This document shows positions 211-37,300 of a stretch of 64,000 nucleotides of DNA, piece after piece (position 1 is the stretch's first letter; each line of letters begins with the position of its first letter). The DNA is from Hypomesus transpacificus (lineage: Eukaryota > Chordata > Actinopteri > Osmeriformes > Osmeridae). A program made the position numbers and the translations under genes. The notes under the pieces were generated by a model. It had not been told where the DNA came from. It saw only the letters and a program-made list of their open reading frames with translations, and ran no database searches. The DNA lies in contig NC_061063.1 of the NCBI RefSeq assembly GCF_021917145.1, positions 5,905,944-5,969,943 of the forward strand. Direction: 5' to 3'.

Positions 211-3200
211 CGATGGCTTGCGGTGCGACCATGTGGCAGAAGAAGGAAGCGAACATGATGAGAATCATGGGATAGGAGACCCAGACCAGATACTGCAACA
301 GCACGTTACCTCTCAGTTCCGTGTGGATCCACTTATAGGCTAGGGGAGCAGGGGGGCAAAGGGGTGGGGGACCAAGGGCATGGAAGGAGATTAGTCATAG
401 CAGGGTCGACTCACAGTTACAAGGATGACACGGTAAAGACTACCCCTGGATGGGGTCAAAGGTTAAAGGCCAAACCGTCTAGAAAGGTGCTGGTTTGTTG
501 TCTGTGAGACACTTCATACCGTTTGACTTGCTTAAGTGCAAAATATGAAGGATTACCTTACATTGTGACCGAAGAGACCGTACTACTAAAGAGTACTGAC
601 CTGTTGTGTTAGAATGTTGGTTAGAAACATATTAGTTGTCCCCGGTCGACCAGAGAACCAATAGGAAGAGTGGTCTTTCAAAGCCCTCATGCAAATGTGA
701 TCAATAAATTGGCTGTCCAGAGGGGAATTGATGTGTTGATGCATGATGGGTATAGTAGTTTATTACCTTGAAGGCTCTTAGCACTGGCGTAGTCCATGGA
801 CCAGCTGACTAGAGCCATGCTGATGCCGAGGAGGACCAGGAAGATCCAGTCCTCACCAAGCTTGGTCACCAGGAACCTTTGCACACGCATTACACAGTCT
901 GGAAAGACCACAGGACAGAGTTTGAACGTGTTTCATGACAAGTACATTTACCGTATTTCTTCGAATGAATGCCGCCCTCGAACAAACGCCGCCCCCAAAA
1001 AATCATAAAACTGTTATTTAATTTGTTAAATTCCACCCCAGTATTTATTTCACATGTACATAACTTTCCTCACAGTTTTCTGTTTGAAAGCTAACGTGTA
1101 TGAACGTTTAGGCATGTTGCTTCAGATTTCTACACAATGTAGAACACTTGTATTTGAGACAGTTGTACTACCAACGCACACCTACTTGATAGCCAATGAG
1201 AAATTGAGTTGCCTCACTCATAGACAAACAAAGAATAGACAAGGAGGTCAGCAGTAGTAAATGAAACCTGCGTTTTTAGCTGCATGATTCATTTGTCACA
1301 ATGCCAGCAATTAAGTTGTCTATGGCTGCACTGCAGCAACAATTCCCGAAATCTCTCTTACTGATTAAACGCTGCACTAAAAATGAACGTTATTTAATAA
1401 ACGCCGCGGCTACACTTACATTTATTCATTTCGCAGATGCTTTTATCCAAAGTGAGAACTTTACAAAAAGTGCATAGGTCTATGATCAGAAACAACAAGA
1501 GCTCCAAAAACATTGCGGGTAGCCAAAACATGAGAATACTTTGTGATAAGCAAATAAGTGCCAATGGGAGGAAACACAAGAGCATTTACCTGTAGGAAAG
1601 CAAGCAACAATAATATAATTTCCAGCGAGTACAAGTAGGACACAAGACAGTCCAGACACATGCATGGTCTGGTTAAAACCCAAGTACATCTACTAACTAC
1701 TTTCCTGCACTCATATAACATGGCTGTCGCCCTCTCACTATTTGCAGCTTTTCTGACCCCTGACCTTTGCATTTTGAGTAGGAACGCCGCTTCTTTATAG
1801 AAGAGCTGTGCTCTTGATCTTTAGGCTGTCCCGCCTCTCCAGACACTGCCTCCGCATTGGAGTGGTGCTGACTCCGATGCCTCGCATGGTGGCCATGACC
1901 ATGGTGACTGTGCCCATGGTGACTGTGTCCATGATGATGGAGTCCATGGAGCTGGTGACCGTGGTGATGTTGGTGGCCGTGTTTTTTGAACTGTCTCTCT
2001 GTCAGCAGTCGGGTGGCCTCTCTCCTGCCTGACCCGCCGTGGTGCTCGTGGTACTCCCCATACAACTGAGAGGAAAGAGAACTACGTTACCCATAAAGCT
2101 GTTCAGGAGAAATAACAGTTATATGCCTACATGGAAGCCTACAAGTACAAATATATTTTGGAATGTTTTGTTTGTAAAAAAAAAAAAAAAAAAAAACAAA
2201 GAACAAAAAATAAGTTTCTCTATAAGGAGAACATAATTACGTTACCCACGTGCCTAAACAGCGGGAAATAACTTTCCATGGAGCTTGAAAGGGGGAGGGA
2301 TACGAGAACTACGTTACCCACAGGCCTTTGCTCAGGAAAAATGCCAAATGACTCAGTGATGAATCAACTTAATTGCTAAGAGTCAAAACAGACTTCTTAT
2401 ATCTTCTCTGTGAGTAAAATAAAAAAATAAGTGCACATGGACATGAGCAGATGTCCCAGAGCGTGGGAAAGTCAGGGTGTCACAGAGCAGTGGTCTGTCC
2501 TGCCCTGGCCACCACAGGAATAGACTCCTCAACTTGTTGACCTAAATCTCCCTGGAGCGGAAGCTGGGGTCTACATCTACATGAATCTGACCTGGACAGC
2601 TTCCATGGCATCTGGAAGAGAGGTTAGACCAATCTGATCCCCTTTCTCTCTTGCACAAACACACCTCACCCCGTCAGTCCACTGAGAGCCTGTCTATCTA
2701 GAACCCTACAGTAAGCCGTGACATAAGACATTCACAACATAATGAAGCATCACAAGACACCATCAATGCTGAACAAAAGACACATTTTTGTCTTTTATCA
2801 GAAAGCAAACAGCATGACTGTTACCAACACACCAGGCCAGCATCAACCCTCTACTGGAAACAAATGAATAACACCACACCCTCTAAACTTCCTACATTAG
2901 CTTGACAATTTATTTCAAATAGGTTACTGAAGTTTTGTCTCAGACTGCTAAGCTACTGTCAATCAAGTCATCGGGCTATTTGCTAGTTAGTTCATGCTAG
3001 GTCACTGCTGAAGCTACTCTGCTATGGATGACGGGCCACACCTGTTGTGATTCTCATAGAATGGTACGTTACAGGGATCCCATACCATCCTGTCACTTCT
3101 CTCTTACACAAACTCATCTGTCCATTTCAGTCATTCCCCTTTTCCCTTCCACTCCTCCTCTGTCAGTACATGTAATCCCTTGCTTTCTCCAAATCCCCCC

Positions 3201-7484: not shown

Positions 7485-10400
7485 ATGTCAAAGGGAGACG
7501 TAGAGTGTGTATCAGGAAACACCCTTTGTGGTGAGTGTTACTCTCCTTCTCAGTACTCGCTCTCTTAATTCTCCTTAATCCATTTCTCCCCTGATGCTTC
7601 CTCCTCCATCTCAAGTCAACCAAGCCAAGCCATGCTCAGGTACAGATGCTCTGTTTGTGTCAAACACGAGCCTGAGGCACAGAGCTCAAACCCCATGTTA
7701 ACAGAGTAGAATACATATGCCTCTGTACCAGGGTGGAGCACTTCAGACCGCCTTTTACAAACAATACCAAATTAACAGTGCTGCAGCCATTGGAGATAAG
7801 GTTAGATTATGTTGCCTCAACTAAGTCTGGACAGACGCCTTGAATACACAGATAAAAAACACATAGCAAATGGAGGACAAATCACATTTGGAAAAACATT
7901 ACACACCTGTTTGGCTTCACAAAGTAAACACCATCTGTATAGTTTGTGAATCGAGTCTATTTCATTGTTTCCACACATAAGACAAGGATCTGTTTTTAAA
8001 GGATCCGTTTCTCTCCAGCACATGTAACTCTGATCATGTCCATCTGTACATTTCACCAAACAAACTATGGGCGCTGGGCAGGATTTGCTTTCACTAGTTT
8101 CTATTGACATGCTAATTCAGTCACACTTAGTGGGAGCTAAGACTACCAGTGATGTCAATAGGCTGACCTGTGCTTTCAGTCAGTGGAATGACGAGGTATT
8201 ACATGACACTATGTGTTTTGCCATGAATGCTCTTGCCACTGTACTAGTTACTCAAGTTTACCTTCATAAGTCACTGTCTCATCTTGCAAAGGATACACAT
8301 ACCAAGTACTTAGTGAGGTATTCAAATAGGTGGGATCCAGCTATGCAGCTGGATGCAGCTATTCAGCCAGTGTCATGTACACAGACTGTGGAAACACTCA
8401 ACATTGATTCTGTCCAAACCAAGTGAAAATGCAATTTTTACGTTATCTACCACTGTAGATCCTGACACCTCTGCGACCTCAGCCTCTCTCTCTCTCCTAC
8501 TTTCTGTCTCTCTCCATCCTACCCGCTACATTTCTCTGACCGTCTTCCTTCCTCTCTCCCTCAGTGGTCCTGAATCATGAAAAGGAAGTGATTGTAGTTC
8601 CTGTTGTACTGCTTGTGATCTTCCTGATCGCTCTGTTGACCATCTTCCTGTTGAAGTTCTGCCCTGACCGCACGCCAGCCCCAACGCTTCTCCCGACCAC
8701 CACTCCACCGCAAGGAAACAGAGCGAGCAGACACAGACACACACGCAGTCAGAGACACAACCTTCGGGGCATAGATGGTGAGCATGTTATGTGTGTGTGT
8801 GTTTCAGGGTTTGAGTGTGTGTCTGCATGACATTGATTCATTATTTATAGCAGTGCTGTGTTATAAATCTACCATAGCACAGTAGGTAAGGCTGACATCT
8901 GCTCGATTTCAAGTTCAACCTCCCTTTCTCTCATTTATCTCCTTTCTTCTCTCAAATCCCTTCCTCTACGCAGCTCCAACTGAGCTCAACCCTCTAGAAC
9001 ATGAGGAGGTACCCATAACAACCCCCAGCAGGGGGCTGGCCCCGCCCACATTGTCCGCAGTACCGGAGATGGCCAGCGAGAGGCAGCCTGGTTCCTTCCA
9101 GCTGGTCACTCCTCTGCCCAGGTCATTGTTTGTGGTTCCAGGAGCCTCTGTGACTCTCTACAGGGCCAGGATGGAGAACAGGGATGTGGTTCTGCGAGTG
9201 CTGAAAGGTGACACACCATAACAGACTAAACGTTGTACTGCAGTAACTAGTAGGAAGAGGACAAGGCTTTATTTAGGATGTACAATATCTGACAATGTAT
9301 TAAGAAAACAAACCTGACAGTCTTAACCTAGTCTCAAAAGCAGAAATCCATCCAGGTAGAATCTAAGACTCTTCCCTTTCTCTTACCAGAATCAGCAGAC
9401 GCCGGTGAACGGCAGCACTTCCTGGGGTTTGCTTCCTTCCTGTCAGAGCTGGGGCCCCACCCCTTCTTGCCGGGTATGATGGGAGTTGTGTCCGTGCGGT
9501 CGCCCTTGGTTACAGTGATAGAGGAGCTGGAGCACAGAGACCTGCTGGGTTATCTCTGGAGGTGCAGACAGGTACCACAGGGTTATTTCCGCCGGGTTAC
9601 ACAGGTACTGCAGGGTTATCTCTGGAGAGAGAGACAGGTACTGCAAGGCTATCTCTGCAGGGTGAGACGGGTACTGCAGGGTTATCGCTGGAGGGTTAGA
9701 CAGGTACAGCAGAGACAGAGTGAATTGCAATATACTCCACACCATACTGCAGTCGTACATTAACTAACATACCTATTGGCCTACTTCTAGGTAATAAAAA
9801 AAACTGTTTCATTATGTCTTTTTTATTGGTAATACAGTAATAGTCTTTAGACTAAAGTATATCAATGCACCTGATACAAAAATTGGGATTAAGAAAGTAA
9901 TTAGAGTTTAAATTGTTTTTTTTTTCTTGGCAGGACCACACAGGTGAGGGCTCACCATGTGACCTCACAGAAAAACGCATCTTCACCATGGCAGGACAGG
10001 TGTCCTCTGCTCTGGTTGGTTTCGCCCTGCTTTTCTTTCTACTTCCTCTCTGTTGAGAAATCTGGATAAAAAAACTGAAAATTACTATAGCACCCATTTT
10101 CTCTCTCTCCATCATCTAATGTTATTCTCACCAAGTACAATGTCAGCTCAAGTTCACCTCTATTTCTCCACCTAGGAATATTTGCACAGCAAGAGCTGTA
10201 TCCATGGCAACTTGGGTGCCCGGAGTGTTCTGGTTGGTCAATACCTAACAGCCAAGCTCTGGGGGCTGGGCCCAGCATACAGGAGGCGGGGCCAGACGGG
10301 GACTCCATGGGAACTGGAGGACATGGAGTTGAGGAAGTGGCAGGCTCCTGAGATACTGGCCAGGAGAGACATCAATCAAAGTAGTGATATGTAAGTATCT

Positions 10401-34326: not shown

Positions 34327-37300
34327 TTAGTGGCAAGGGTCAAAGGGGTACTTGGTAACCCCACCATGTAACTCCACCACAGCCTCTGTCCATGTGATGA
34401 TATCACCGGTCAGGTGACCTCCACAACTGGCCTGACTGAAGATCTCATTGTGCGTCAGAACCCGTGACCAGAATTGAAGGTCAGACATCTCTCCCACAAA
34501 GGACTGGGTAGCATCAAAGCGTCCACCCAGCGTGTCCTGTTGAACAAAAGACAGGTTTGATTTATTTACAGCAAACCTGTGAGATAAAGATTGTCATACT
34601 TTGCTTTTTACTGTGATCTGTGTACTTTCTTGAGCACCAAATATGAATGGACAATTTATTCACAAAAGTAAGTAGCAAAACAGAGATAGTTCAATGCTTT
34701 ATATGGAAATTGCTTTCCCACAATCCAAAAGGTCTTACCTGAAAATGTAAACAACCAAATCAACCTGAGTATAATTCAGTTCAAACATTGGGTGAAAATT
34801 GAGAGTGACAGTTCTGTTCTGTACCTGCTCTTGCCCGAGGATGAAGACCCCTCCAGGCTTGATGGGGTGCCAGGCTGAGAGGTTCTCCCCTGACCCCCTC
34901 TTCACCCCGTCCTGGTAGGCTTCCCACAGGCCGTCCCTCGTCGTCCAGGTGATGCACAAGTGGTGCCACTTCCCATCCGTCAGAGAGATGGGCAGCGTCA
35001 CAGCCTGCATGATAAATACATACAATTGGGCACCAGTTGCAAATCATAAGGCACAGGGGGCGTTGCTAGACATAAAGCTCATACTTGGGCTCAGACCCCT
35101 CATATTTTTTTTTCTTCCAAGTTTGCGTGGTGGCACCGTGGGTGGCGACCTCTGTTCATGTCACCCGGCCCCAGCCCCGGCCCCGGCCCCAGCCCCGGCC
35201 CCGGCCCCAGCCCCAGCCCCGGCCCCAGCCCCAGCCCCAACCCCAGCCCCAACACCAAGACCATGTGTTTCTAACTCCTGGGTCTCTCCTTTCTGCAAGA
35301 CAAGGCAGGCTAAGCTGCTTTCCTAGTCCTGTGGTCTTATTTCATTAGCGAGGATGAGGAAGCGAGGACAAGCTACTGCGTTGCAAGGCCAAGGAAGAGG
35401 TGAGAGCAGGCAGCAGCTGAACTGTGACTGTCACACAGACGCACCTAAGGAACAGGGTTTAAGTCCTTCTCTCACCCTGATTGGATGAGAGCTGGGGAGT
35501 GTCATCTGCCATGCAATGTGGCACTCTTTGTACAGACCATTGGTTTTCCATTTGTATTTGCCAATGAAATAACTGCTAAAATTGTAACAAGGCTCTGCTG
35601 TCATTTAAATAATACATCAGCACATAAAATGCTTTCAACATTGTGGGACATGCTCACTTCCCTTGCTTAGATGTATTTTACCTTGTCATTGATCAGTAGC
35701 TCCATGGGGTTGTTGCCCCATTCAATCAGCACTAGCTCGTTGGCCTGGCCAGGTACGGAGTAGGAGAAGGGTGTGCCCAGACCCGGGCCAGAGCCGCCCT
35801 TCAGCCACAGGCACACGGTCAGGGCAAATATCTCATTGAGCAGGGTCCTCTTCACCCTTCCGTACATGTAGTTGGTCCTCATGGGGAAGCCGATCTGGAA
35901 GGCGTCTGGACTCTTCGGCTTCTTGCGGCCACCTGGAGGAGCCACATCAGAGCAGAAGTGACTGGTTAGGTGGAGAAAGAGGGTGCCCAACCTGGGGATA
36001 TGGGCAGCTAATGTAGGAGATGCCCTTCCAAGATAGATAGGAAAGACACTACATTTACATTTAGTAATTTAGCAGACACTCTTATCCCGAGCGACTTACA
36101 GTAAGTACAGGGACATTCCCCCCGAGGCAAGTAAGGTGAAGTGCCTGCCCAAGGACACAACGTCATTTGGCATGGCAACCTTCAGATTACTAGCCCAATC
36201 CCCTAACCACTCAGCCATCTGACTTCTACACTACCAGCATACATACACAGCTAGTGTGGGAGAGACCCTACTAGGATAGATTGGCAGATAGTGTAGGAGA
36301 GAACTTACCAGGCTCAGTGTTCCTGTTGTGCAGGTGACTGAAGACCGTGTCCAGTTTAGCGTGGCCCACTCCCCCACGGACAGGAGGTCTGGCTGGAACA
36401 GGTTTGCTGCCATAGGGAGGTCTGGGGTGATGGTCTGTGTCACTACCATGGTGTCCACCATTGTCACGGTGATCATCGTGATGATCATCATGGTGACCAG
36501 GGCCTTGGTCACTGCCATGGTGGTCATTGTGATGGTCATCGTGGTGGCCAGGTCCTTGCTGGTTGTTGTGGTGACCGGGACCATGGTGGTCGTCACGGTG
36601 ACCAGTGGCATGGTGGTCATCGTGGTGACCAGGGCCGTGGTGATCATCATGGTGATCATTGTGGTGGTCGTCATGGTGACCAGGGCCATGGTGATCATCG
36701 TGGTGATTGTCATGACGGCTGTGGCTGCGGTCATAATGGCGGTCATAGTGTCGATCATAGTGATGGTCGTCATGGTGACTATTGTGACGATCCTGGTGGC
36801 GATCATGGTGGCGATCATGGTGTCGGTCGCCATGATGATCGTCATGATGATCGTCGTGGTGATCGTCATGATGGTCATCGTGGTGATCATCATGATGGTC
36901 ATCGTGGTGATCATCATGGTGATCATCATCGTGATCATCATGGTGGTCATCGTGATGGTCGTCATGGTGACCATTACCATGGTTGTCATGGTGATCGTCA
37001 TGGTGACCAGGGCCATGGTTTCCCCCATGGTGATTGTGTAGTTGTTCCTCCAGGGCATTAATCTTTCTCTGGAGCAGGTCCCTCAGTGAGCTGGAGTAGG
37101 AGCTAGAGGAGTTCCTGGCCTGGGGAGGGACAGAAAGAATTAAGAGAAGGCGAAAGAGAGACTCGAGAAAGGCTTGAGAATACAGTTGACTACCTTCTGA
37201 AGGTTGCAGAATTTGTGTCCCCCCCTACAATTCCAGAGAGCGAAATGGAAGACCAGGCCTAGCCATAGTGGTTAAGCATTATTACATTTAAATTTGTCCC

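Follow-up and report, generated by a model that had tools for sequence, protein, structure and literature searches.

Coding exon 4 of the styk1 gene of this fish ends in a tandem repeat that carries its splice donor several times into the intron, always in frame. Is this a device for alternative splicing, or a minisatellite that happens to have grown from an exon end? The gene lies in a stretch of 64,000 nucleotides (hereafter, the window), which matches once in a genome assembly of 437 Mb. The styk1 model has nine coding exons with GT-AG borders and gives a complete product of 434 amino acids, assigned to the protein kinase family Pfam PF07714 (E 3.1e-44). The alignment of the product to ABL1 covers the exon 4 stretch, the catalytic loop reads HGN and the activation loop GLG. 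Human STYK1 is described as a pseudokinase with GLG and the catalytic loop HKD in the accessible part of PMC13259870.

TRF placed the array at 9542-9712 (74% matches, 4% indels). It is a minisatellite in the sense of head-to-tail units of about 10-60 bp with copies alike, with a period of 33, 5.2 copies and a score of 171; an alternative fit had a period of 66 and a score of 208. Read without gaps, it consists of five 33-bp units at 9539-9703, of which unit 1 covers the final 11 codons of exon 4 and the other four are intronic (Table 1). Both readings confirm the five consecutive units that the earlier note had described across the exon end; its register, 9548-9712, describes this array with an offset of 9 bases from the 9539 reading. 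The GTs at 9572, 9605, 9638, 9671 and 9704 were all found as claimed, with CAG/GTA at four of the five unit boundaries and CGG/GTA at one (9671). The later donors are indeed in frame and stop-free, with the peptides as given in that note, and reading through the array the frame stays open until a stop at +190. To compare the donors, the 33 GTs from 9480 to 9932 were scored by a vertebrate weight matrix (PWM) and by pairing energy to the U1 5' end.

Table 1. Features around the border of exon 4 and intron 4 of styk1 (positions in the window; a slash marks a splice border)
Feature	Position	Strand	Sequence	Remarks
Coding exon 4	9390..9571	+	ends in RDLLGYLWRCRQ/	Spliced model; phase 0; paralogue exon stops at the same codon
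Unit 1, exonic, probably the ancestral copy	9539..9571	+	DLLGYLWRCRQ	25/33 bases equal to the paralogue exon end, vs 14-20 for units 2-5
Intron 4, standard model	9572..9933	+		
Unit 2, intronic copy	9572..9604	+	VPQGYFRRVTQ	Opened by donor 1, CAG/GTACCA
Unit 3	9605..9637	+	VLQGYLWRERQ	Opened by donor 2, CAG/GTACTG
Unit 4	9638..9670	+	VLQGYLCRVRR	Opened by donor 3, CAG/GTACTG
Top-scoring donor-like site of intron 4	9659..9667	+	AGG/GTGAGA	GT at 9662, in unit 4; PWM 4.4, U1 -9.0 kcal/mol; best of 33 GTs by both scores
Unit 5	9671..9703	+	VLQGYRWRVRQ	Opened by donor 4, CGG/GTACTG
Shortened unit 6, without 18 bp	9704..9718	+		Opened by donor 5, CAG/GTACAG; addition to the earlier note
Coding exon 5	9934..10014	+	starts with DHTGEGSPCDLTEKR	Spliced model; acceptor TTTTTTTCTTGGCAG/

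The array donors are chimeric: CAG/GTA is followed by bases resembling the exonic CTG, and the consensus at +4 to +6 (AGT) is absent from all five. With only three intron bases copied and exonic sequence behind GTA, each boundary regains the exonic half of the donor plus GTA and loses +4 to +6. The predicted RNA structure across the array was no better than that of shuffled sequences (z 0.71).

A second styk1 gene was found on another contig (G000:C2, L022). There, exon 4 stops at the same codon (DLLSFLWRCRQ/), the intron has the same position and phase, and the donor CAG/gtaaga scores high (PWM 7.0, U1 duplex -11.0). No array was found at the end of this exon 4 or in its intron. The last 33 exonic bases of the paralogue share 25 with unit 1, and 14, 19, 19 and 20 with units 2 to 5. 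Because the paralogue shares exon end and intron position with styk1 and has a strong donor without an array, unit 1 and the donor at 9572 are most likely ancestral and the remaining units most likely copies. With such a first unit in the exon and donor-bearing copies behind it (one paralogue compared), the array has the make-up of a tandem duplication of an exon-intron junction. It is not a gain of an intron, which would be absent from relatives, since the paralogue has its intron at the same place and phase. The paralogue carries a repeat of another kind in its apparent exon 3 (L022:3825-3968), with a 24-bp unit in six copies (95% matches), between the membrane segment and the kinase domain.

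The account that we favour, with a probability of about 0.68, is that the styk1 array is an old, diverged and probably neutral intronic minisatellite born from the end of exon 4, with 9572 as the main donor and a minor isoform from 9662 possible. A piece made up of the final ten codons of exon 4 plus the three intron bases next to them (CAG/GTA) would have undergone repeated tandem duplication, most likely once the two styk1 genes of this fish had separated. The donor at 9572 most likely still is the main one, as it yields the conserved protein; the remainder of the array would be spliced out with the intron. The array donors and the open frame would be by-products of copying an in-frame piece, the length of which is by chance a multiple of three. 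A stronger in-frame cryptic donor in unit 4, at 9662, may yield a minor isoform with 30 additional residues.

Some properties of the units themselves count against neutrality. The array is old, with 20 to 29 of 33 bases shared between pairs of units (61-88%), yet units 2-5 all measure 33 bp and are stop-free. These four units show 16 differences from their own consensus, 3 of them at the first, 5 at the second and 8 at the third codon position (third-position excess, P 0.13). Seven of the 16 are synonymous and nine nonsynonymous (P 0.095 against random substitution), a lean that also speaks against the neutral account. The CAGGTA core is hit by one of the 16 differences (sparing, P 0.18), and units 2-5 would be stop-free by chance with P 0.33. 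In general, the tests of coding constraint all lean the coding way and none is significant (P 0.09-0.33).

Donor strength is the next point to weigh. The donor at 9572 (PWM -0.4, U1 duplex -7.1 kcal/mol) has the lowest PWM among the eight donors of styk1, which again counts against the neutral account; its U1 pairing is mid-range, better than that of four of the seven others. The later donors at 9605, 9638, 9671 and 9704 have PWM values of 0.0, 0.0, -2.3 and 0.3 and U1 energies of -7.1, -7.1, -6.4 and -7.1. The site at 9662, missing from the donor list of the earlier note, reaches the 99.1st percentile of PWM among the + strand GTs of the window. It is in phase and stop-free, and its use would add 90 nt (30 aa) adjoining helix αD. 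By these scores, an alternative isoform would most plausibly come from 9662, which is likelier than the four later GTAC donors if any alternative is used.

One could go further and suppose that 9662 is the main or a frequent donor, so that exon 4 ends 90 nt later and VPQGYFRRVTQVLQGYLWRERQVLQGYLCR is added after helix alphaD. We consider this unlikely, even with 9662 ahead of donor 1 by both scores and an extension that is open and in phase. A period of 11 residues preserves helical phase, and a single-sequence AlphaFold2 model of exon 4 plus array fits it, predicting one helix for residues 63-113 at low overall confidence (mean pLDDT 62; ten-residue blocks between 64 and 94 over residues 61-120); however, single-sequence models of this kind are biased to helices. 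Moreover, the paralogue lacks the insert, and 0.9% of the + strand GTs in the window score as high as 9662, so that a site this strong would be expected, by our estimate, among the 23 intron GTs besides donor 1 in about one-fifth of introns of this size. PDGFR/FGFR-type receptor tyrosine kinases carry an insert between helices alphaD and alphaE, and the putative extra residues of styk1 would enter at this position.

A bolder version, which we regard as doubtful to a greater degree, is a live splice cassette tunable by copy number. In it, 9662 and some of the repeat donors would add 11-44 residues, extending helix alphaD of the pseudokinase by three turns per unit, and the repeat number, differing between fish, would set the length of the protein insert via splicing.

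Then, we evaluated how frequently exon ends are caught in tandem arrays elsewhere in this genome. TRF was run on the window and on 20 arbitrary samples of 10 kb each (264 kb in total, including 1,818 bases N). It reported 58 arrays with a period of 20-60 and no fewer than 2.5 copies, or about 220 per Mb; the samples account for 53 of the 58. The surroundings were read for three of the 53 sample arrays, chosen from those with AGGT or ACCT in their units, and in two of the three the array starts at an exon end. In the first (L038:7050-7249; G000:C6:2007050-2007249), the exon aligns ungapped to monocarboxylate transporter 10 (MCT10) through its last codon (E 7.8e-20), and the array has 6.4 copies of 31 bp with six CAG/GTAAGA 31 bp apart (TRF, 100% matches). 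In the second (L027:9003-9106; G000:C3), a Rab10-like exon end and its donor are copied in three units of 35 bp (TRF, 100% matches); the exons, joined by hand, align ungapped over the junction (E 1.1e-17), and read-through into the intron stops at +37. According to protein alignment and frame, it is the foremost of the similar donors that gives the full protein in both genes, and by this parallel 9572 is likely to be the main donor of styk1. No gene was recognised around the third inspected array, in L040. This array (L040:9606-9955) has 11.6 copies of a 30-bp unit, a multiple of three, and is open in three of six frames. In the window, at 36533-37006, neighbouring arrays of 27, 48 and 51 bp are built on a TGGTGATCATCA-like 12-mer, and each of the 48- and 51-bp arrays is open in four frames.

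Furthermore, a genome-wide search for pairs of the donor word CAGGTAAG separated by 15-45 bases gave 469 matches. The 100 matches listed represent 29 places, all on contigs C1 to C7, and 22 of these places were inspected. Among the matches listed, six of the 22 places have an array beginning at the end of an exon that has some support for a protein family: MCT10-like, Rab10-like, two USP-like, syntaxin-like and ZNF512-like. One USP-like gene was scanned (UCH, E 4.1e-5, 0.1 bit below the cut-off) and the second is near-identical to it by eye; the syntaxin-like place has a SNARE domain at 35.2 bits (cut-off 26.8), and the ZNF512-like support is weak (16.4 bits, cut-off 27). Two more places (L057 and L061) have the appearance of exon ends from open frame and copy structure alone, and the remaining 14 of the 22, among the matches listed, have no clear exon assignment or do not look exonic. 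The second copy matches 16 to 40 exonic bases in seven of the eight exon-end places, and only 5 in the syntaxin-like one. In the USP-like genes (L049 and L050; G000:C2:10.54-10.59 Mb), exon end and donor lie in a 40-bp tandem duplication; three more places nearby have almost the same 40-bp word, which suggests copies of the USP-like gene that inherited the duplication. A rule that the last copy always loses GT, as in the styk1, MCT10-like and Rab10-like arrays, was dropped, as L058 and L048 have a donor-like CAGGTAA past the last full copy.

The frame of these arrays bears directly on styk1. In seven of the eight exon-end places, among the matches listed, none of the later copies of the donor lies in frame and is also free of stops; the spacings are 31, 35, 38, 40 (twice), 46 and 49 bp (MCT10-like 31, Rab10-like 35, USP-like 40 and ZNF512-like 46 bp). 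Thus, an open frame is not a rule of the donor-copying class. As none of these units is a multiple of three, the 33-bp unit of styk1 can be put down to chance, at about one in three, and its frame is probably luck. The exception is the syntaxin-like place (L056:1-701; - strand of G000:C4:7307900-7308600), where later donors are in frame and open at +33 and +42, the latter a strong CAG/GTAAGC after the SNARE-domain exon and a candidate copy. This place counts against the neutral account.

We also considered whether duplication is targeted to donors, an idea prompted by the two extra donor arrays in 200 kb of samples and by 469 tandem pairs of CAGGTAAG against 83 of GAATGGAC. Three control words of the same base composition as the donor word were compared with it. 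Genome-wide, the tandem share is 469/14,515 (3.2%) for CAGGTAAG, 83/10,748 (0.8%) for GAATGGAC, 911/14,831 (6.1%) for GACAGTAG and 783/25,870 (3.0%) for GATGACAG. On contigs C1 to C3, for which the listings are complete, separate places number 16 for CAGGTAAG, 3 for GAATGGAC and 27 for GACAGTAG. Within the 20 samples, 6 of the 10 sites of CAGGTAAG are in tandem, and these six belong to the MCT10-like and Rab10-like arrays; 1,119 other words of the same composition are so at 82/5,467 sites, and words that contain all four bases, simple ones excluded, at 3,165/95,625. An acceptor-like word had 338 tandem pairs (96 + 242) and 146 backwards; having no single-site count, it was left out of the comparison. 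Compared to GAATGGAC alone, donors look enriched, and this excess, with the 6 of 10 sample sites, counts against the neutral account. However, targeting was rejected in view of the two further controls (911 and 783 pairs): genome-wide, the donor word is within the control range, and the donor-copying arrays look like duplications that happen to cross exon ends in a minisatellite-rich genome.

The earlier note had offered two readings, and it is the minisatellite grown from an exon end that is borne out, by the paralogue without an array and by similar arrays at other exons. The other, a graded device under selection in which 9572, 9605, 9638, 9671 and 9704 are used in turn to add 0, 11, 22, 33 or 44 residues, fares poorly, and we hold it to be very improbable. 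The U1 energies of 9605, 9638 and 9704 equal that of donor 1 (-7.1; 9671, -6.4), all donors are in phase and open, and there is the slight synonymous lean. Nevertheless, no constraint is significant, the later GTAC donors are as weak as the first, all five being weak by weight matrix, most other exon-end arrays break the frame with units that are not multiples of three, and the donor word shows no excess in tandem repeats over the three controls together. Least probable of all is that an extended exon was used at the birth of the array and later shed as the original donor at its 3' end decayed, leaving the weak first donor. The original donor would have been intact when the array arose and, since GTA is all that the copies have of the intron, its +4 to +6 bases would be expected downstream of the last copy; there, after the shortened copy ending at 9718, AGTGAAT now stands and no donor. 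Against this, the introns of styk1 and the paralogue show no likeness by eye (unaligned), so that the original donor is unrecognisable.

Coming back to the minisatellite account, its principle has precedents. Zhuo and colleagues, in PNAS in 2007, reportedly traced introns and alternative splice sites to tandem arrays. As far as the accessible part of Genome Biol 2009 10:R137 (PMC2812944) goes, a tandem repeat near an exon border can carry or activate splice sites, and the repeats are kept in the exon or removed as intron. The styk1 array is alike in having splice sites in a repeat near an exon border, but it starts at a donor that was already there, in an intron that the paralogue has at the same position, and its copies are added on the intron side, with no intron made and with candidate donors only. 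In the accessible parts of PMC3443670, PMC4974935 and PMC2891723, duplicating a piece with AG/GT gives extra splice sites, and a potato case crosses the exon-intron border as styk1 does; the difference is that in styk1 the old acceptor and the old intron remain and there is no new intron. A duplication that is a multiple of three permits differential splice patterns, according to the same part of PMC2891723. Arrays of precisely this kind, an existing donor multiplied on the intron side, were the subject of no paper that we found in a search that had most subscription journals outside it. The principle of duplicated splice sites is already known; styk1 differs from it in that an existing donor is multiplied intron-side and no intron is gained.

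Splice donors are duplicated like other sequence in this minisatellite-rich genome, so RNA evidence is needed before an in-frame donor repeat is taken for design. If the tunable cassette were true, repeat copy number would set the length of a protein insert. Such arrays let the long-standing question of spliceosome choice between similar donors be studied in natural cases, and the MCT10-like array, with six CAG/GTAAGA of which only the first gives the full protein by frame, is a natural experiment in donor choice.
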